Shown: positions 53,350-61,064 of the stretch, piece after piece
How positions within the stretch are numbered: position 1 is the stretch's first letter
Layout of the letters: every line of letters begins with the position of its first letter
Assembly: GCF_026242055.1 (NCBI RefSeq)
Contig: NZ_JAPJDL010000031.1
Coordinates: forward strand, 1 to 64,000
Length of the DNA stretch: 64,000 nucleotides
Source: Lentzea sp. NEAU-D7
GTDB lineage: Bacteria; Actinomycetota; Actinomycetes; Mycobacteriales; Pseudonocardiaceae
Direction: 5' to 3'
The notes under the pieces: model-generated
Told to the model about the DNA's origin: nothing
Database searches by the model: none
Seen by the model: the letters and a program-made list of their open reading frames with translations, nothing else
Translations under genes and position numbers: made by a program

Positions 53350-55728
53350 ATGGCCGGGCGCACAGGGACTTCGAGAAAGACCACGTCACGCGGCAAAGCA
53401 CCAGCCAAGCCGCGGGCGCGGTCCAGCGCGTCCAGAAAACCCGCACCGCGCAAGAAGAGCGGCGGTGCTATCAGCGCCGTGTGGGGTGCTTTGGGCCGTG
53501 GCGTCGGCAGTCTCGTGCGCACCGTCAGCCGTACCAAGGACCTTGATCCCGAACACCGCCGTGACGGCCTGGGCCTGCTGCTGATCGCTCTCGCGGTCAT
53601 CACCGGCGCCGGGGTGTGGTGGCAGGCCGGTGGACCGGTCGGGCAGTGGGTCGACGTCGCCGTGCGCAGCTCCGTCGGGTTCCCGGCGGTGATCGTGCCG
53701 GTCGTGCTGCTCGGCATCGGCGTCACGCTGATGCGCACCGACCCGAAGCCCGACGCGCGCCCGCGGCTGATCATCGGCTCGCTGCTGATGATGATCGGCG
53801 TGCTCGGCATGTTCCACCTCATCGGCGGCCTGCCGATGGACCCGCTGGAACGCCGCAGCGCCGGCGGTGCGCTGGGATACCTGGCCGGAGGGTTCCTCGC
53901 CCAGGGCCTGACGCCGTGGGTCGCCGGGCCGTTGCTGTTCCTGATCTTCGGCTACGGCCTGCTGGTCGTGACGCACACGCCGATCCGCCAGGCGCCCGAA
54001 CGCATCCGCTCGTTGCTGCACCCCGGCACGCCGGCGAACGACGAGTCGCCGGAGGAGGAGCCGGTCGAGGAGCCGAAGCCGGTCCGCCTGCGCCGCCCGT
54101 CCCGCCGGCGCCAGGCCGTCGAGCCGGTCGAGGAGGAGCCGCAGGCCGAGCTCCCGCTGGAGGAGCCCGCGGAGCCCGCCCCGAAGCCCGCGAAGGAGAA
54201 GAAGGCCGCCGCTCCCGCGATGGTCGTGCGCGCGGTCGAGGGCGAGTACCAGCTGCCGCCGCCGGACGTGCTGAAGGACGGCGACGCGCCGAAGACCCGC
54301 AGCAAGGCGAACGACCTCATGATCGAGGCGATCTCCGGCGTGCTGGACCAGTTCTCGATCGACGCCCAGGTCACCGGCTTCACCCGCGGCCCGACGGTCA
54401 CGCGCTACGAGGTCGAGCTCGGCCCCGGCGTGAAGGTCGAGAAGATCACCGCGCTGACCAAGAACATCGCGTACGCCGTGGCGACCGACAACGTCCGCCT
54501 GCTGGCCCCGATCCCCGGCAAGTCCGCGGTCGGCATCGAGGTGCCCAACAGCGACCGCGAGATGGTGCGGCTGGGCGACGTGCTGCGCGCGCCGTCCACG
54601 GTCAAGGACACGCATCCGATGGTGATCGGCCTCGGCAAGGACATCGAGGGCCACATGGTCACCGCGAACCTGACGAAGATGCCGCACCTGCTGGTGGCGG
54701 GCTCCACGGGTTCCGGCAAGTCGTCGTTCGTGAACTCGATGCTGGTGTCGCTGCTGGCCCGCGCGACGCCCGACGAGGTCCGGATGATCCTCATCGACCC
54801 GAAGATGGTCGAGCTGACGCCGTACGAGGGCATCCCGCACCTGATCACGCCGATCATCACGCAGCCCAAGAAGGCGGCGGCGGCCCTGGCCTGGCTCGTC
54901 GAGGAGATGGAGCAGCGCTACCAGGACATGCAGGTCAACCGGGTGCGCCACGTCGACGACTTCAACCGCAAGGTGAAGTCCGGCGAGATCACCGCGCCGC
55001 CCGGTTCCGAGCGCGTCTACCGGCCCTACCCGTACATCATGGCGATCGTCGACGAGCTCGCCGACCTGATGATGACCGCGCCGCGCGACGTCGAGGACGC
55101 CATCGTCCGCATCACGCAGAAGGCCCGTGCGGCGGGCATCCACCTCGTGCTGGCGACGCAGCGGCCGTCCGTCGACGTCGTCACCGGCCTGATCAAGACG
55201 AACGTGCCGTCGAGGCTGGCGTTCGCGACCTCCTCGCTGACCGACTCGCGGGTCATCCTGGACCAGCCCGGAGCCGAGAAGCTGATCGGCATGGGCGACG
55301 CCCTGTACCTGCCGATGGGCGCCTCGAAGCCGGTGCGCATCCAGGGCGCGTTCGTGGGCGACGAGGAGATCTCGTCGATCGTCGAGTTCACCAAGAACCA
55401 GGCGCAGCCGGAGTACACCGACGGCGTCACCGCGCAGAAGGCCGGCGAGAAGAAGGAGATCGACGCCGACATCGGCGACGACCTCGAACTGCTGGTGCAG
55501 GCGACCGAGCTGATCGTGACGTCGCAGTTCGGCTCGACGTCGATGCTGCAGCGCAAGCTGCGCGTCGGGTTCGCCAAGGCGGGGCGCCTCATGGACCTGC
55601 TGGAGACCCGCGGCGTCGTCGGCCCGTCCGAGGGCTCGAAGGCACGCGAGGTGCTGATCAAGCCGGACGAGCTGGAGTCCGTGATCTACCTGATGCGCGG
55701 AGGCGGCCCCGCCGACGACGAGGACTAG
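53350..55728 (+). CDS. ftsK: DNA translocase FtsK/SpoIIIE
   Basis: 792 residues. Septum-anchored ATPase that pumps chromosomal DNA at division. A basic N terminus is followed by four membrane helices (about 73-205), a Pro/Glu linker (230-310), the alpha domain (SIDAQVTGFTRGPTVTRYEV), and the beta motor with Walker A G451-STGSGKSS and Walker B IVDELADLMM; the C-terminal gamma winged helix (TSQFGSTSMLQRKLRVGFAKAG) reads KOPS-type signals. It is normally followed closely by argA in actinobacteria; here 5.4 kb of accessory genes intervene. Confidence 0.96.
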   Translation: MAGRTGTSRKTTSRGKAPAKPRARSSASRKPAPRKKSGGAISAVWGALGRGVGSLVRTVSRTKDLDPEHRRDGLGLLLIALAVITGAGVWWQAGGPVGQWVDVAVRSSVGFPAVIVPVVLLGIGVTLMRTDPKPDARPRLIIGSLLMMIGVLGMFHLIGGLPMDPLERRSAGGALGYLAGGFLAQGLTPWVAGPLLFLIFGYGLLVVTHTPIRQAPERIRSLLHPGTPANDESPEEEPVEEPKPVRLRRPSRRRQAVEPVEEEPQAELPLEEPAEPAPKPAKEKKAAAPAMVVRAVEGEYQLPPPDVLKDGDAPKTRSKANDLMIEAISGVLDQFSIDAQVTGFTRGPTVTRYEVELGPGVKVEKITALTKNIAYAVATDNVRLLAPIPGKSAVGIEVPNSDREMVRLGDVLRAPSTVKDTHPMVIGLGKDIEGHMVTANLTKMPHLLVAGSTGSGKSSFVNSMLVSLLARATPDEVRMILIDPKMVELTPYEGIPHLITPIITQPKKAAAALAWLVEEMEQRYQDMQVNRVRHVDDFNRKVKSGEITAPPGSERVYRPYPYIMAIVDELADLMMTAPRDVEDAIVRITQKARAAGIHLVLATQRPSVDVVTGLIKTNVPSRLAFATSSLTDSRVILDQPGAEKLIGMGDALYLPMGASKPVRIQGAFVGDEEISSIVEFTKNQAQPEYTDGVTAQKAGEKKEIDADIGDDLELLVQATELIVTSQFGSTSMLQRKLRVGFAKAGRLMDLLETRGVVGPSEGSKAREVLIKPDELESVIYLMRGGGPADDED

Positions 55729-56477
55729 TCGGTGTTCACCTTGATCGGGTGACGGACGTCGCCAGGGCACACCCAGACGTTCAGCGCGCCGTCCGAGAAG
55801 TCCCAGCCGACAGGCCTGGCCTCGGGTTCGAAGCAGAACTCCGGCTCGGCGCGTTCGTACGTGTGCAACGCCAGCAGCAGCTCGCGGCGGGCGCCGCACT
55901 CAGGGCACTCCATGTCGCCTGGTCCGCTCGCGTACCAGAACGCCCAGCCTCCGACCTTGGTGGACACCGCGACCTCCGCCCAGCCGTCGCGGGAGACGCC
56001 CTCCGGGGTCTCGTGCGGCGTCGGGTGTTCCACACGCCGGCAAGGGCTGAGCACGCACGGCCGGGCGCGGTGGATCGGCTCGGACAGCGCGGGCTCCGGC
56101 GGGGCGGCGAGCACGTCCGCGACCGCTCTCGAGTCGCGCCACACCAGGCGGACGTCCGGCCAGAAGGTGTCGGCGTCCGGTTCGTGGAACAGCGGGCAGA
56201 GCAGGAGCTGGAACAGATCGGTGCCGTCCGGGAACGGCAGCTCCGGGAAGTCCCTGCGGTAGAGCTGCACCGGTGCGGTGAAGGCGTTGTGCACGCCCCG
56301 GCCGTCTCCGACGTCGAAGCCATGGTCGGTGTGGGTGGATCCGTCGCAGTACGGCCACGGTTCGTCCCGCGGCCAGAGCACCGGACCACCGATGTGGCTG
56401 TCGGTCACAGACGGTGCTCCGGGCCGCGGGTGCAGGCGCACCGAAGGCCTTGCCCAGGCGTCGGTTCTCGTGGTCAT
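55725..56477 (-). CDS. DUF1963-like protein
   Basis: 250 residues. The N-terminal HIGGPVLWPRDEPWPYCDG and later LFQLLLCPLFHEPD resemble the YwqG/DUF1963 fold, and a CxxC pair in GDMECPECGARRELLL looks like a zinc ribbon near the C terminus. Often associated with stress or SUKH-like systems, no function established. ATG at 56475-56477. Its stop overlaps the ftsK stop by 4 bp. It is preceded by a hairpin that belongs to the phospholipase gene. Confidence 0.72.
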   Translation of the reverse strand: MTTRTDAWARPSVRLHPRPGAPSVTDSHIGGPVLWPRDEPWPYCDGSTHTDHGFDVGDGRGVHNAFTAPVQLYRRDFPELPFPDGTDLFQLLLCPLFHEPDADTFWPDVRLVWRDSRAVADVLAAPPEPALSEPIHRARPCVLSPCRRVEHPTPHETPEGVSRDGWAEVAVSTKVGGWAFWYASGPGDMECPECGARRELLLALHTYERAEPEFCFEPEARPVGWDFSDGALNVWVCPGDVRHPIKVNTD

Positions 56478-56568: not shown

Positions 56569-57039
56569 CTACTTCAGGCCGGCGTTCTGGATGCTGGTGG
56601 CCGTGGAGCTGGCGCTGCCGCCGAACTCCCGCACCGCCGCGTAGTACAGGTCGGCGGTGCGCTTGCAGGCCCAGTTGGAGCCGCACTGCTGGTACATGTC
56701 GGACTTGAAGTTGTTGTCGATGCGCAGGCGGTTCGTCTCGTTCCACCGGCCCTGCCGCTTGTAGTTGCGGTAGCCGAAGTCGTGCCGGTGACAGGTCGGC
56801 AGGAACTTGAAGCCGAAGGGGTTGTCGGGCGAGTACGAGCAGCCGTCGGACGACCAGTCGAGCTGACCCGCGTAGGGCTGCTGCGCGCGCAGTGTTGTGA
56901 ACTGGCCGATGGTCTTCGAGTAGAGGTAGTCGTCGGTCACCGCGACGATGTCCACGGCGTGTGCCGGGGTGCCCGTGAAGATCAGGGCGATGGAGGCGGT
57001 GGCACCCACGAATGCCGAGCGCAGGGTCTTCGTCGACAT
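56569..57039 (-). CDS. Secreted prokaryotic phospholipase A2
   Basis: 156 residues. Sec signal peptide (residues 1-28, ending THA-like APAHA, cleavage after A28). The mature part is the Streptomyces-type PLA2: Ca-loop and first cysteine in DWSSDGCSYSPDNP, catalytic H86-D87 in CHRHDFGYRNYK, and the second aspartate D108 in RLRIDNNFKSDM. Cys67/83 and Cys119/125 should form disulphides. Hydrolyses the sn-2 ester of phospholipids outside the cell. ATG at 57037-57039 has GAGGAG upstream. It lies 84 bp after the TOMM cluster on the same strand and may have its own promoter. Confidence 0.92.
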   Translation of the reverse strand: MSTKTLRSAFVGATASIALIFTGTPAHAVDIVAVTDDYLYSKTIGQFTTLRAQQPYAGQLDWSSDGCSYSPDNPFGFKFLPTCHRHDFGYRNYKRQGRWNETNRLRIDNNFKSDMYQQCGSNWACKRTADLYYAAVREFGGSASSTATSIQNAGLK

Positions 57040-57122
57040 GGCGAGCTCCTCGGAGTGTGAGCAGGGTCTCGCCAGTTGTAGCGGGTGATCGACTGTCCTC
57101 GGTAGACACGATCTGGTGAACG

Positions 57123-57785
57123 TCAGGTGATCATGTGCCCGCACGCGATCGCGGTGGCCACGCGGAGGTCTCGGGGCAGGCCCAGCGCGTGGAGCATTTC
57201 GTTGTCCGCTACGCCGCCCAGCAGGTAGCCGCCGAGCTTCTGCTCCGCCAAACGGAGGCAGATGCTCTGCGCGGCGGCTCCCGCTTCGATCAGGCCGAAG
57301 CGGCCCGCGCGTTCGCCGTACTTCTCGAACGAGTCCCTGTCCATCAGCATTAGGACGATCGTCAGCGGCGGCACCTCCGGCGTGCCGAGGATTTCGGCGA
57401 GGTTCGCCGGTGCCTGGCCGATGTCCTGCAACGCGTGGCGGCGGATGTCGTAGCGGACCGCCCGGTCGTGCACGAACGCGTAACAGCGCAACGGGTTGAG
57501 GCCACCCGCGGAGGGACAGCTGTTGTCGGACAGGGCGCCCAGCACCGTGCCGAGCTGCTTGTCGGTCAGCGGCCTGTCTGAGAACTCGCGCGTGCTTCTG
57601 CGCGCCCGGAACAGCTTCTGCAAGCGGTCGTTCGGACGGGGGAGCGGGAGCGGCGCCGCGGGCAGCTCCAGCGGGTCGATCAGCTCCGGCTGAGGCCGGA
57701 AGTCCCGCAGCCGGTCGCCGAGTCTGCGCTGGTGCAGTGGCGAGTACCGGCTCGCGGCCCAGAAGTCGTCGAACATCGGTGTCAC
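57123..57785 (-). CDS. SagB-type FMN-dependent azoline dehydrogenase
   Basis: 220 residues, nitroreductase fold. In TOMM pathways SagB-type enzymes oxidise azolines made by YcaO to azoles using FMN. Marks: LFRARRSTREFSDRPL (FMN-phosphate loop), SAGGLNPLRCYAFV, and EAGAAAQSICLRLAEQKLGG. Short N-terminal part compared with full SagB, so it is the compact form. GTG at 57783-57785 overlaps the YcaO stop (GTGA); ATG 9 bp later is an alternative with GGGGTGA before it. Last gene of the cluster. Confidence 0.85.
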   Translation of the reverse strand: MTPMFDDFWAASRYSPLHQRRLGDRLRDFRPQPELIDPLELPAAPLPLPRPNDRLQKLFRARRSTREFSDRPLTDKQLGTVLGALSDNSCPSAGGLNPLRCYAFVHDRAVRYDIRRHALQDIGQAPANLAEILGTPEVPPLTIVLMLMDRDSFEKYGERAGRFGLIEAGAAAQSICLRLAEQKLGGYLLGGVADNEMLHALGLPRDLRVATAIACGHMIT

Positions 57786-58936
57786 CCCAGCGGATGCGGT
57801 GCGGGATTGGGGAACACGCCGGGTGAGGCGTGCGGGTAGCGCCAGCCGAGTTCGCGGGCGCGGCCGCCGAGGTGCGGCCAGCGGTGGTCCGAGTGCAGCG
57901 GCGCGAGGTCCGGAGACAGGACGCGGACGCAGTGCAGTCCGACGGCCGACAGCTCCGGCGTGGTGAGCTCGCGGTAGGCGAGCCGGACGTCCGCGCGGTC
58001 CAGGGCGTGCACGAGTTCGGTCAGTTCCGCCGCTGTGCCACGGGATTCGGCATCAGGCGGCGGGTCGGTCTCGAAGCCTGCGAACCACGGCAGCGCGTCC
58101 CACTCGTCCGGGCGCGTGGCGTAGTAGACGGCGTGCTCGTCGAAGTCGGTGACGTCCTCGACGGGCCGATCACCGTTGCGCGCGAGCCACACCTCGATGA
58201 AGACCGTGCCCTGGACCCACTCCTCGTAGGCCTTCCGCACGGCCTCGGCGACCGTGGCGCGGCACGCGAGGCCGAGCGTGGGCCTCGGCTTGCCGGCGAT
58301 CGGCAGCGAACCCGCGACGGCGACCACCGGGTGCGGGCTGTAGGCGGGCGTGAGGTCGAACGCCATCGCGCCGTGCGGCAGGTCGGCGGCGAACCGTTGC
58401 GGTGCAACGGAGTGCAGCCAGATCGTGGTGAACGCGTCGCGCTCGACCAGTTCCTGGACGGCGCGCAGCAACGCGCTGGTCGTGGACGGACCGGCCGCCA
58501 GCCCCGAGGACGTCGCGGGCAGCCCGTAGGAGGCGTCCAGGCCGACGAGACCGGCGGGCACGCGGATCGGTTCGTTGCCGGGCAACGTCCACGCCCGCGT
58601 GTACGGGGTGTCGACGTATCCCTTGCGGTAGCGGTAGCCGGGGGCCACCCGCTGCTCGACGGTGTGCAGGCTGAAGTGCTCCAACGGCCAGCACTCGCCG
58701 TCGGTGACGATCTCCAGCGGCGCCCGTGCGGCGGCGTGCCGTTCCAGGGCCTCGGCGATCGCGGCGATCTTGCTCGTACCGCCGGACGTGCCGCCGGTGG
58801 CGAACGGCTCCGGCACCGCGGCCCAGCCCTCGACGTCCACATCGGACAGGCTGTGCGGCACGGGGTGCAGCTGTGACACCACTCCCTGCCGCCAGCCGAC
58901 CGCGCGCTCGGCCAGCGCCTCCGCGACGGTCCTCAC
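57782..58936 (-). CDS. YcaO-domain azoline-forming cyclodehydratase
   Basis: 384 residues. YcaO enzymes use ATP to cyclise Cys/Ser/Thr onto the preceding amide. ATP/Mg ligands lie in SKIAAIAEALERHAA and RAVQELVERDAF (the E-x-x-E-R repeats), with GGTSGGTS before the first and the C-terminal proline-rich tail NPAPHPLG, which is near the active site in TOMM YcaO proteins. GTG at 58934-58936 overlaps the TGA of the poly-Cys gene, with GGGGGAA upstream, and sets the length. The open frame extends further up but only across that gene. Confidence 0.92.
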   Translation of the reverse strand: MRTVAEALAERAVGWRQGVVSQLHPVPHSLSDVDVEGWAAVPEPFATGGTSGGTSKIAAIAEALERHAAARAPLEIVTDGECWPLEHFSLHTVEQRVAPGYRYRKGYVDTPYTRAWTLPGNEPIRVPAGLVGLDASYGLPATSSGLAAGPSTTSALLRAVQELVERDAFTTIWLHSVAPQRFAADLPHGAMAFDLTPAYSPHPVVAVAGSLPIAGKPRPTLGLACRATVAEAVRKAYEEWVQGTVFIEVWLARNGDRPVEDVTDFDEHAVYYATRPDEWDALPWFAGFETDPPPDAESRGTAAELTELVHALDRADVRLAYRELTTPELSAVGLHCVRVLSPDLAPLHSDHRWPHLGGRARELGWRYPHASPGVFPNPAPHPLG

Positions 58937-59466
58937 CGCTTCCCCCGGTAGCGCCGGAAGATCCAGTACCCGAGCCCCAGCGCCCCGCCGACGTAGAGCA
59001 CGCCGGCCACCGCCGCGGCCCCCTCGTCGACGCCGGCGATCGGCCCGAGAGTGAACAGCACAACGAACGGCTCCAGGCACCACAGCACAGCCCAGCCAAG
59101 CAACCGGACCACGCTGCCCACCGGGTTCGGCGACCGGGCGATGAAACCGGAGGCGGTGGCCCACGCGAGCGCCGCCGCGAAACCGCCGAGCCACCAGCCC
59201 CAGTGGACGTCGAAGACCGCGCCCATCGTGGCGAACGGCAGGACGACGACGAGCAACGGGAAGATCGCGGCGGGCAGGACGAGCAGGCTGCGAGGCCGGG
59301 GGAGATCCTTGGTTTCCTCGTACAGCGCCGCCGGGATCTGCACGGCCGCGCCGACCGAGGAGATCGCGCAACAGCAACAACAACAGCAACAGGTGGGTGT
59401 CGCGGCGTTCGCGGCGGCCGCACCGGGTGAGAACTGGTCAGGTAACCGCACTGCCGTCGCGTTCAT
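58933..59466 (-). CDS. Poly-Cys four-helix membrane protein, proposed TOMM precursor
   Basis: 177 residues. The N terminus (about 25 residues, acidic and Ala-rich: AVRLPDQFSPGAAAA) leads to eight consecutive cysteines, C26-C33, preceded by TPT and followed by AISSVGAAV. Four predicted membrane helices follow at 61-80, 89-110, 117-142 and 149-170, and the C terminus is basic. The eight Cys codons are TGT five times and TGC three times. It lies between the leader-binding and YcaO genes with 29-bp and 4-bp overlaps, so it is the natural substrate. Family unknown to me. Confidence 0.75.
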   Translation of the reverse strand: MNATAVRLPDQFSPGAAAANAATPTCCCCCCCCAISSVGAAVQIPAALYEETKDLPRPRSLLVLPAAIFPLLVVVLPFATMGAVFDVHWGWWLGGFAAALAWATASGFIARSPNPVGSVVRLLGWAVLWCLEPFVVLFTLGPIAGVDEGAAAVAGVLYVGGALGLGYWIFRRYRGKR

Positions 59467-60229
59467 GGTCCCCCCAAGGAAGTGACACGCGCCCGAACTC
59501 GACAGTCGGGCAGATCTCGCAGCCGGCCGCGGGCAGCACGCTCTCGCGCGTCGTCGTGAACTCGTCGAGGTTGACGGTCACGACCGTGTCCAGCAGGGCG
59601 AGCGAACCGTTCCGGATGTTCTGAACCGCTTGCAGGGCAAGGGAAATCGGAAACTCGTGGGACATGGCCGCGGGCTGCGGAGGAGGCGGCGGATCCCCCC
59701 ACCGCCGCCCTGCCCGCACCGCGAGGCACGCCAGGCACGCACCGGCACCGGGCACCACGAAGGGCCCGACGGCGGCGGTGTGGTGGTAGGCGAGGTCCAG
59801 CAACAGGTGCGGCACCTCCGTCTCGCGCGCCACCTCGATCAGGTCGGCCAGCGTGCCGGTCGTCCGCACGACGAGCAGGAGGTCCGGATCGTCGTGGTGC
59901 GGCAACAGCTCTGCCAGCCCGGCGGGTGCCTCCCCGACGACGCGCGTGCCGACCCCCATCGGCTTGACGTCCTCGGTGGGCAACCCGGCCGGGCGGAGAG
60001 CGCCCAGGGTCCTCAGCTGGGCCACGTGCCGGCGAACCGGTTCCCCCAACCGGCTCTCGTCGACCGTTCGAGCCACGCCCCTCAACATCGGCTCGAACAG
60101 GCCGGCCAGCGCCACGGCCACCGCCCTGGGCAGGTCTGGAATCAGGTAAATGAGATCGGCTCCCGCGTAGACGACGAGTCCTTCGTCGCGAACTTGGGCG
60201 TGCCAGGCGGGATCAGCGACCAGGCTCAT
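59438..60229 (-). CDS. TOMM leader-binding/E1-like (SagC-type) protein
   Basis: 263 residues. E1-ubiquitin-activating-like partner of YcaO; these contain a leader-recognition winged helix (RRE) at the N terminus, here the region LIPDLPRAVAVALAGL to ARTVDE, and then an inactive ThiF fold. Two CxxC motifs, C165-LA-C168 and C237-EI-C240, form the structural zinc site of the family. Shorter than SagC (350), like other actinobacterial stand-alone versions. ATG at 60227-60229 overlaps the regulator by 17 bp. Confidence 0.82.
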   Translation of the reverse strand: MSLVADPAWHAQVRDEGLVVYAGADLIYLIPDLPRAVAVALAGLFEPMLRGVARTVDESRLGEPVRRHVAQLRTLGALRPAGLPTEDVKPMGVGTRVVGEAPAGLAELLPHHDDPDLLLVVRTTGTLADLIEVARETEVPHLLLDLAYHHTAAVGPFVVPGAGACLACLAVRAGRRWGDPPPPPQPAAMSHEFPISLALQAVQNIRNGSLALLDTVVTVNLDEFTTTRESVLPAAGCEICPTVEFGRVSLPWGDHERDGSAVT

Positions 60230-61064
60230 CCTCGTCCTCCCGTTTCAGGAAGTTCTCGATCTCCTGCTCGCTCGGCAGATCGCCCGCCGGGTCCATGAGG
60301 TTCTCGGCGATCGGCGGCAACGGCTGCTCGGCCCACGCGGGCTGGAAGTCGTCGCTGGGCAGCAATCCGTGCCGTGACGCGAACTCCTCCGCCGCGTCGC
60401 GGATCGACTCCCGCAGCGTCCCCACCACCGCGGTCTCCGCCGTGTACGTCAGCTCGACGAGCAACGCCCGCACGTTCTCCAGCTGGTTCTCGTCACCGGC
60501 CTTGCGGGCCAGCTCCGGCCAGAACTGCTGCTCGAACAACCGCACGAAGTCCGCCGCGATCGCGTCGGTCGCCGTGCGCAGGCGGGTGAAGCTGTCCATC
60601 ACGTCATCGCTGGGCACCCTGAGGCCGGCGAGCCTGCCGCCCGCTTCGAGTGCCCAGCGACGCGTGTGCGGCCAGCCGTACTTCCACCGCACCAAGCCCA
60701 ACCGCATAGCCCGGAGGAGGAGTCGCGGTTGGACGTCTCCTGTCGGAATCAGGTGCTTGATGTCGCGCACCTTGATCCGAACCCAGTCGTCGGGCCCCTC
60801 GGCCTCGCTGAAGCCGAGGACCGCGGCGACCGACTCGCCCTTTTCCCGTGCCGAGATCAGCTCGGCGATCGCGGGCAGCGAGAACCCCCGCTGCTGCAAC
60901 CGCTGCACCAACGTCAACCGCTCGACGTGCGAGGCGTCGTAGTACGCCACGCGCCCCTGCCGTCTCGGCGCGTGCAGCACACCCTTCGTCTGGTACATGC
61001 GAATGGTGCTGCTGGGCAGGCCGATCCGGGCGGCGAGCTCGTCGATGGTGAGCGATTCGGGCAC
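60213..61064 (-). CDS. MerR-family regulator of the TOMM cluster
   Basis: 283 residues. N-terminal MerR winged helix: LTIDELAARIGLPSSTIRMY then QGRVAYYDASHVERLTLVQR, with recognition residues at the RMYQTKG turn. The long C-terminal part (~200 residues) is helical, with RESIRDAAEEFASRHG and an acidic tail (EQEIENFLKREDEDE); it is not a metal-sensor form. GTG at 61062-61064. -35 TTGACT and -10 CAAGAT lie upstream, and a 26-bp palindrome borders the -35. As the first gene, overlapping the next, it is cotranscribed with what it controls. Confidence 0.85.
   Translation of the reverse strand: MPESLTIDELAARIGLPSSTIRMYQTKGVLHAPRRQGRVAYYDASHVERLTLVQRLQQRGFSLPAIAELISAREKGESVAAVLGFSEAEGPDDWVRIKVRDIKHLIPTGDVQPRLLLRAMRLGLVRWKYGWPHTRRWALEAGGRLAGLRVPSDDVMDSFTRLRTATDAIAADFVRLFEQQFWPELARKAGDENQLENVRALLVELTYTAETAVVGTLRESIRDAAEEFASRHGLLPSDDFQPAWAEQPLPPIAENLMDPAGDLPSEQEIENFLKREDEDEPGR

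Follow-up and report, generated by a model that had tools for sequence, protein, structure and literature searches.

YcaO systems that form azoles are known to act on small peptides. Plantazolicin and telomestatin are free, small, contiguous polyazoles of the class of ribosomally synthesized and post-translationally modified peptides (RiPPs), and their adjacent azoles come from YcaO-type machinery. In the cytolysins among the thiazole/oxazole-modified microcins (TOMMs), the modifying enzymes are separate proteins. A precedent for a protein modified by YcaO is McrA, which is thioamidated and stays in use. Here, we analysed a locus of Lentzea sp. NEAU-D7 (assembly GCF_026242055.1, contig NZ_JAPJDL010000031.1) at positions 57,123 to 61,064 of the window, by which we mean the whole stretch of 64,000 nucleotides under analysis. 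The locus encodes an E1-like putative leader-binding protein, a 177-residue membrane protein with eight consecutive cysteines, a YcaO cyclodehydratase, and a SagB-type dehydrogenase. We consider it probable that these four genes form an azole-forming (TOMM) system that has an integral membrane protein as its substrate and retains the product on the membrane.

The streptolysin S family cytolysins (TIGR03602) and the propionisins also have E1-like, YcaO, and SagB-type proteins. As described in PMC4603692 and PMC4513790, a contiguous run of heterocyclisable residues precedes a variable C-terminal part in their precursors. There, this part is a short tail, whereas here it is a four-helix membrane domain of ~115 residues. 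Moreover, the protein falls outside TIGR03602, its leader (RLPDxF...ATPT) lacks the FXXXB motif, and no CaaX-type protease or ABC transporter was found in the scanned loci of the family. Compared with plantazolicin and telomestatin, the predicted run of adjacent azoles would be alike, but here it is carried by a membrane protein and consists almost purely of Cys. In comparison with McrA thioamidation, no thioamidation partner was found among the scanned window proteins, and SagB and a leader-binding protein are present.

Like the present locus, the mobilisins are actinobacterial TOMM clusters with B, C, and D proteins only; in the part of PMC4603692 that was accessible, they have a fused cyclodehydratase and a short candidate precursor with few Cys, Ser, or Thr, whereas here the C and D proteins are discrete and the precursor is a membrane protein with a Cys run. 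The nearest published idea that we found concerns the MNIO bufferins and TIGR04222, where a peptide-modifying enzyme is likewise considered to act on a Cys-rich integral membrane protein from Actinomycetota; the excerpt of PMC12452194 at hand proposes TIGR04222 membrane proteins as possible MNIO substrates. There, the enzyme belongs to another class and the Cys-rich part is C-terminal and extracytoplasmic, whereas here YcaO and SagB are encoded and the Cys-rich part is N-terminal and predicted to be cytosolic. No MNIO (DUF692) enzyme or partner was detected among the scanned window proteins, and none of 14 diverse precursors matched TIGR04222 at E ≤ 1. Many TOMM classes were listed by Cox et al. 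2015, none of them with a membrane-domain precursor in the portion of the article seen (PMC4603692). A search of the open-access literature, mostly titles and the beginnings of abstracts, gave no description of a poly-Cys membrane precursor family. The locus shows three features that characterise TOMM clusters, namely an azoline-type YcaO with PxPxP, an E1-like partner, and a leader with a heterocyclisable core beside the enzymes. It represents a conserved, apparently undescribed TOMM family whose likely substrate is an integral membrane protein.

Gene Organization of the Locus

The following features were located, listed in the direction of the minus strand:

60213..61064, minus strand: MerR-family regulator, 283 aa (PF13411, MerR_1, E = 1.5e-20)
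59438..60229, minus strand: E1-like putative leader-peptide-binding protein, 263 aa, two CxxC, discrete from YcaO (TIGR03882, E = 7.7e-9)
58933..59466, minus strand: poly-Cys protein, candidate precursor, 177 aa (from sequence, conservation, and topology)
59368..59391, minus strand: eight Cys codons, proposed core (TGT TGC TGT TGT TGT TGC TGT TGC)
57782..58936, minus strand: YcaO cyclodehydratase, 384 aa, GTG start, C-terminus PNPAPHPLG (PF02624, E = 9.3e-28)
57123..57785, minus strand: SagB-type FMN dehydrogenase of the nitroreductase family, 220 aa, with a Lys-Tyr pair (PF00881, E = 2.7e-21)

The first-pass annotation had reported five open reading frames (ORFs) that overlap one another by 4 to 29 bp. 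All five are present on the minus strand, and the overlaps, in the order MerR, E1-like, poly-Cys, YcaO, and SagB, were measured as 17, 29, 4, and 4 bp. The queries used in the YcaO searches began 7 codons 5′ of the likely GTG start.

The Leader and the Cys Run

The precursor consists of a leader (residues 1-25, RLPDQF...ATPT), eight Cys (residues 26-33), a linker, and a four-helix membrane domain (~61-177). The run comprises exactly eight consecutive Cys, as described at first pass, encoded by mixed TGT and TGC codons. In a six-frame reading of the 64 kb window, no other run exceeds four Cys, and two reach exactly four. Because all 22 Lentzea orthologues keep the eight Cys, with silent changes at three of the eight codons and no replacement, the run is, judged by its codons, not a chance feature. 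The mean majority-residue fraction in Lentzea was 0.95 for the leader, 1.00 for the run, and 0.74 for the membrane domain; in a diverse set of members, the corresponding values were 0.76, 0.97, and 0.42.

Altogether, 37 intact copies of the precursor were compared, 22 from Lentzea and 15 from elsewhere. The latter have the runs C8, CSC8, CSC6, CSC5, C6SC, C6, C2SC7, C7, C9, and CSSC7, some of which recur, and the number of Cys per run across the intact copies is 6-9. The sole residue other than Cys inside the 37 runs is Ser, which can be heterocyclised as well, with 8 Ser (codons TCG, AGC, TCT, AGT, and TCA) in seven of the 15 runs outside Lentzea; the run was defined by pattern as Cys or Ser following TPT, so that this rule sets its end, and the wider context was inspected separately. 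The tetrapeptide ATPT stands directly before the run in 22/22 Lentzea and 14/15 other copies, and one copy of genome G1217 has VTPT (genomes and fetched loci are denoted here by our handles, G and L with a number). Ser residues within some of the runs would yield mixed thiazole/oxazole strings, and a complete octathiazole on the eight Cys is possible.

The position of the core near the N-terminus had been taken as the reverse of usual precursors. That part of the description was not upheld, since TOMM precursors ordinarily carry their core behind a leader of ~25 residues; the membrane domain as the bulk of the protein is indeed unusual. No Pfam or NCBIfam family was matched by the 177-aa protein, and 14 diverse precursors gave weak scattered matches with no common family. 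Sequence searches of the PDB found no useful relative for either the precursor or the E1-like protein.

Codon usage in the run was also examined. TGT accounts for 101 of the 176 Cys codons of the run in the 22 Lentzea loci, whereas ten genes nearby in these loci use it for 71 of their 614 Cys. Positions 1, 4, and 5 (TGT) as well as 2 and 6 (TGC) are fixed in 22/22 Lentzea. The TGT bias could limit slippage or set the translation speed.

The Membrane Domain

The four membrane helices named in the first-pass annotation gained support from an AlphaFold2 model and from a distribution of charges in agreement with the positive-inside rule. The model shows four long helices at low confidence (mean pLDDT 54, pTM 0.38). 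In Lentzea, the mean number of Lys and Arg is 2.9 on the N side, then 0.05, 3.0, and 0.0, and 4.3 in the C tail. Among 14 diverse members, loop 3 is free of Lys and Arg in all 14 and both tails are positive, as scored by a script preset to four helices, which therefore gives no helix count. This charge pattern fits a predicted topology with both ends in the cytosol (N-in, C-in). All 14 diverse members share a Glu (E132) in the third helix, and the membrane domain is present in every copy aligned or printed (22 Lentzea and 15 others).

Proteins similar to the C-terminal half of the precursor were also observed. An 85-residue membrane protein of this kind, lacking the leader and the Cys run, is encoded at L055:7312-7569 (minus strand) and starts in the precursor stop codon. 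Nine genomes of genus g40 without the precursor gave matches to the C-terminal half only (profile positions 113-173), which we read as a small membrane paralogue and not as precursors. In four of the nine (G427, G437, G438, and G440), the gene adjoins MerR by coordinates.

The Modification Enzymes

The E1-like protein of the window contains both CxxC motifs indicated at first pass (CLAC and CEIC) and scored 36.0 bits against TIGR03882, 0.9 bit under the cut-off of 36.9. All 12 diverse E1-like orthologues matched TIGR03882 at E ≤ 0.001 (best 1.4e-12), and the four Cys of the two motifs are invariant in these 12.

The window YcaO matched TIGR03604 (SagD) with E = 1.7e-32 and 112.8 bits, under the cut-off of 219, and the same model was matched by 12/12 diverse YcaOs (best 3.2e-47). 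The YcaO Glu motifs are present, and the C-terminal end PxPxPHPLG is invariant in the 12 diverse members; PMC12338566 links the PxPxP motif to YcaOs that form azolines. A PDB sequence search retrieved a weak relative of YcaO (best E = 0.0051).

The SagB-type protein of the window matched TIGR03605 at E = 2.4e-9, below the cut-off, and 12/12 diverse members matched it as well (best 1e-22). Its PDB sequence search retrieved nitroreductases (best 2.2e-8). The Lys-Tyr pair is catalytic in TOMM dehydrogenases, and the pair K155-Y156 is invariant in the 12 diverse members. Judged by the conserved motifs, all three enzymes look active.

Distribution and Co-Inheritance

The 37 intact precursor copies come from 33 genomes: 22 of 24 Lentzea, eight other members of the family, and three distant actinobacteria. 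A first search of 60 relatives found the precursor in 22/24 Lentzea and in 0/36 others. A sample of the order (397 genomes) added G419 and G281 as well as one degenerate copy, that of G319; among the 25 genomes in the genus of G419 there was no further intact copy, and the genus of G281 (2 genomes) added G443. The family search covered 390 genomes, of which 45 had a match at E ≤ 0.01 and 30 an intact precursor (22 Lentzea, G419, G281, G443, G484, G452, G528, G446, and G599). The other 15 comprised the degenerate G319, the nine g40 genomes with the paralogue only, and five weak matches (G030, G160, G480, G552, and G605; E 9e-4 to 8e-3). These five were dropped, as were second matches in G018 and G021 and seven weak matches of the phylum sample. 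That sample (396 genomes) contributed G974 and G953, and G1217 came from the class of G974 (296 genomes). Two tandem precursors are encoded in each of G484, G452, G974, and G1217. Searches at the level of the order, phylum, class, or family were limited to scoring the 5-11 best candidates per genome, so the distribution is a lower bound. A scan of genome contigs gave at least 7 loci, all of them in Lentzea.

The enzymes follow the same distribution. A full-length YcaO orthologue occurs in the same 22/24 Lentzea, and the other two have partial matches of no more than 32% identity. In 376 family genomes searched at E ≤ 1e-40, YcaO was found in 30, which are identical to the 30 with an intact precursor. 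Thus, the poly-Cys run and the neighbouring enzymes were kept together across relatives, and no case of the same YcaO and SagB genes lacking a poly-Cys run was encountered in the family. Among the ORFs of the operon, no other Cys-rich one was found. Every cluster examined has the order E1-precursor-YcaO-SagB, with the E1-like protein and YcaO encoded by separate genes flanking the precursor. A GTGA or ATGA stop-start overlap joins the precursor to the following gene in 34 of 37 cases, the exceptions being G953 and both G1217 copies; such overlaps suggest that translation may be coupled.

The unit also occupies a conserved chromosomal site, to which two further features of the window belong:

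56569..57144, minus strand: secreted-type phospholipase A2, conserved neighbour outside the unit (PF09056, E = 4.5e-41)
53350-55728: FtsK (Pfam scan)

On the other side, the Pfam scan identified a GNAT acetyltransferase, a radical-SAM/TRAM protein, which we take to be RimO, and a CDP-alcohol phosphatidyltransferase, presumably PgsA. The order FtsK-phospholipase-SagB-YcaO-precursor-E1-MerR-GNAT-RimO-PgsA is shared by the 21 other Lentzea loci and by G419, G281, G443, G484, G452, G528, and G446. In G599, RimO and PgsA were unmatched within the stretch fetched.

Losses of the unit were seen at the same site. In 12 fetched loci without the four-gene unit (Lentzea and genus g40), fragments of SagB and E1 remain in G437 and G442. 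In G319, the run has decayed to WCCCRCRC, the YcaO match is limited to residues 8-96 and that of E1 to residues 1-106, and SagB is truncated or eroded. YcaO distances follow RimO distances with r = 0.97 over 29 genomes (0/999 permutations as high). Within Lentzea alone, the correlation is r = 0.34 (1/999), and that of SagB is weaker (r = 0.23, 21/999); MerR and GNAT distances likewise follow those of RimO. From the distance correlation and the joint decay, we read the four-gene unit as an old one that was inherited vertically along with its place in the chromosome and has often been lost as a whole. With respect to mobile spread, no YcaO match was found in 72,556 plasmid records at E ≤ 1e-20, and among viral contigs none of 15 pattern matches was confirmed.

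The first-pass annotation had combined all five genes into one azole-peptide operon with the poly-Cys protein as the apparent precursor. Co-inheritance and the enzymes bear out an azole gene set with the poly-Cys protein as its likely substrate; the inclusion of MerR had to be given up. MerR remains, together with the phospholipase A2 and GNAT genes, in 12/12 of the fetched loci without the four-gene unit. It was not found in the stretches of the distant clusters G974, G953, and G1217, which have the other four genes (the third by elimination; the stretches of G953 and G1217 start at a contig end). Since MerR persists without the other four genes and was not found in the distant clusters, the gene content defines a unit of four genes, E1-precursor-YcaO-SagB, with MerR as an associated but separable neighbour. 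MerR probably has another target besides the azole unit, because it outlives that unit in all 12 loci. Six precursor-free genomes (G034, G047, G111, G146, G173, and G190) have no close MerR homologue, the best matches being 32% over 173 residues or 44% over 89.

Proposed Mechanism and Alternative Explanations

Leader capture, azoline formation, and oxidation are the pattern described for TOMM systems in the part of the micrococcin paper available to us (PMC10634744). In the present system, the discrete E1-like protein would recognise the 25-residue leader (RLPDxF...ATPT) and present the Cys run on the cytosolic side. As the predicted topology puts both ends in the cytosol, the run would face the ATP-using enzyme. 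YcaO would then close Cys, and in some species Ser too, into azolines at the expense of ATP, and the SagB-type flavoprotein would oxidise these to thiazoles or oxazoles. The four-helix domain (N-in, C-in) would keep the modified string on the inner side of the membrane. Most likely, the mature product would be a polyazole protein that is anchored in the membrane and used by the producer for itself. We are nearly certain that the poly-Cys protein is the substrate, and we think it highly probable that it is converted to azol(in)es. The chances that the product stays on the membrane domain are about even. Retention is favoured because the membrane domain is present in all copies seen, no ABC transporter or CaaX-type protease was found at the site in the scanned family loci, and inheritance in Lentzea is vertical and near-core.

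Several observations weigh against a retained, azole-modified membrane protein. The membrane domain diverges fast, which is odd for a part with a precise job. The leader has no FXXXB motif; the place is taken by FS[PS]GA in 22/22 Lentzea, and the other 15 copies have no Val, Ile, or Leu there (inspected by eye). The FXXXB motif is reported for the streptolysin and microcin B17 leaders in the sections seen of PMC10634744. The window's own E1, YcaO, and SagB all score below the NCBIfam cut-offs, and the AlphaFold2 model of the E1-like protein (pLDDT 33, pTM 0.26) is too weak to show a RiPP recognition element. The family searches scored the best 9 candidates per genome for the precursor and the best 5 for YcaO. 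Unlinked host proteases may act on the product. Finally, four genomes have tandem precursors, and some clusters lie next to genes for export or proteolysis. In G1217, a same-strand ABC exporter gene (L148:3-1529), whose 5′ end may lie off the contig, precedes the E1-like gene at a distance of 38 bp, and a convergent ABC-2 transporter pair follows the G953 cluster. Release or export of the product is possible in these two. An M1 peptidase gene (Peptidase_M1) is convergent to SagB in G599, and a major facilitator superfamily (MFS) transporter gene lies beyond the phospholipase gene in G528.

Some of these observations would suit a streptolysin-like system, in which an unlinked protease cuts off the polyazole to release a membrane-active or antibacterial peptide and the four-helix domain is an anchor, an exporter, or an immunity part. 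We regard this as unlikely, though worth serious consideration. A short leader, a contiguous Cys/Ser run, and a variable C-terminal part resemble the cytolysin layout as given in the accessible parts of PMC4603692 and PMC4513790. One of the 14 diverse members matches TIGR03602 weakly (E = 0.027), but the other 13 have no match at E ≤ 1. The tandem precursors (G484, G452, G974, and G1217), the exporter beside the G1217 cluster, and the peptidase gene beside that of G599 point in the same direction as the layout. On the other hand, no ABC transporter or CaaX-type protease was detected among the scanned neighbours in the window or the 20 gap ORFs of family genomes. These ORFs, of at least 90 aa, lie between FtsK and RimO in G281, G484, G452, G528, G446, and G599, with none for G419 and G443; the scan left out one likely false-frame ORF of G599 and the gaps of the other 21 Lentzea loci. 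The membrane domain has been retained in all copies seen, and weapons are less often inherited vertically in as many as 22/24 species of one genus.

It is also conceivable, but rather doubtful, that a membrane protein here carries an oligothiazole permanently, as a genetically encoded prosthetic group that could conduct electrons or metals, or wedge the membrane, in the producer's own physiology. Eight directly bonded 2,4-linked thiazoles would make, by our estimate, a rigid conjugated rod of ~30 Å, about the thickness of a bilayer. We know of no precedent for an oligothiazole protein cofactor.

Far less probable is a Cys run that is left unmodified and works as a metal-binding or thiol-redox tail, with YcaO and SagB acting on another substrate. 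Cys clusters bind soft metals and a MerR-family gene adjoins the unit, but Ser as the sole replacement in the 37 runs suits heterocyclisation better than metal ligation. The run and the enzymes are lost together and keep their order in every cluster examined, and the operon offers no other Cys-rich ORF as a substrate.

We consider it highly improbable that YcaO makes thioamides or other backbone changes instead of azoles. Its 12 diverse members do match TIGR03266 (McrA-glycine thioamidation) weakly (best 2.6e-10); however, all 12 match the SagD model and share the PxPxP end, a SagB-type dehydrogenase is found in every cluster examined, no TfuA match was obtained among the scanned window proteins, and the run is heterocyclisable. 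A reading artefact of a repeat or of an opposite-strand poly-Gln frame has a negligible chance of explaining the run: the reverse-strand frame does read poly-Gln and poly-Cys look-alikes appeared as weak matches (G010 and G030), but the mixed TGT/TGC codons, the silent-only change in 22 species, the leader and gene overlaps conserved in frame, and homologues in distant lineages that keep the frame with other codons rule it out. In the two look-alikes (the C22 of G010, and G030), poly-Cys occurs only in an apparent wrong frame of another gene, and both were dropped.

If the azole-forming system with a membrane-protein substrate is confirmed, the substrate range of azole-forming machinery would extend to integral membrane proteins, and a natural source of long polythiazoles would become available. 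It would also pose the question of whether a polyazole string is a weapon or a built-in cofactor. A four-helix substrate is kept with its enzymes at one chromosomal site across an actinobacterial family, and it occurs in distant lineages as well; the natural runs of 6 to 9 Cys, with or without Ser, make a ready comparison series.

Other Genes at the Site

The phospholipase A2 was considered as a part of the unit and ruled out, as all 12 fetched loci that lack the unit still have it. An ORF of 250 aa (55725-56477), located between the FtsK and phospholipase genes, has no Pfam match and was matched in 2 of the 21 other Lentzea loci. In G599, genes for the M1 peptidase and an alpha/beta hydrolase (L140:9292-11436) lie between SagB and the phospholipase, on the strand opposite to SagB. 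Next to the G953 cluster, the ABC-2 pair is accompanied by an encapsulin gene (PF04454, E = 7e-82) in the stretch L142:3685-6296. In G528, genes for a RloB-like protein and an AAA_21 ATPase (L138:12105-13978) are located between the phospholipase and FtsK genes; pairs of this kind are seen in defence islands.

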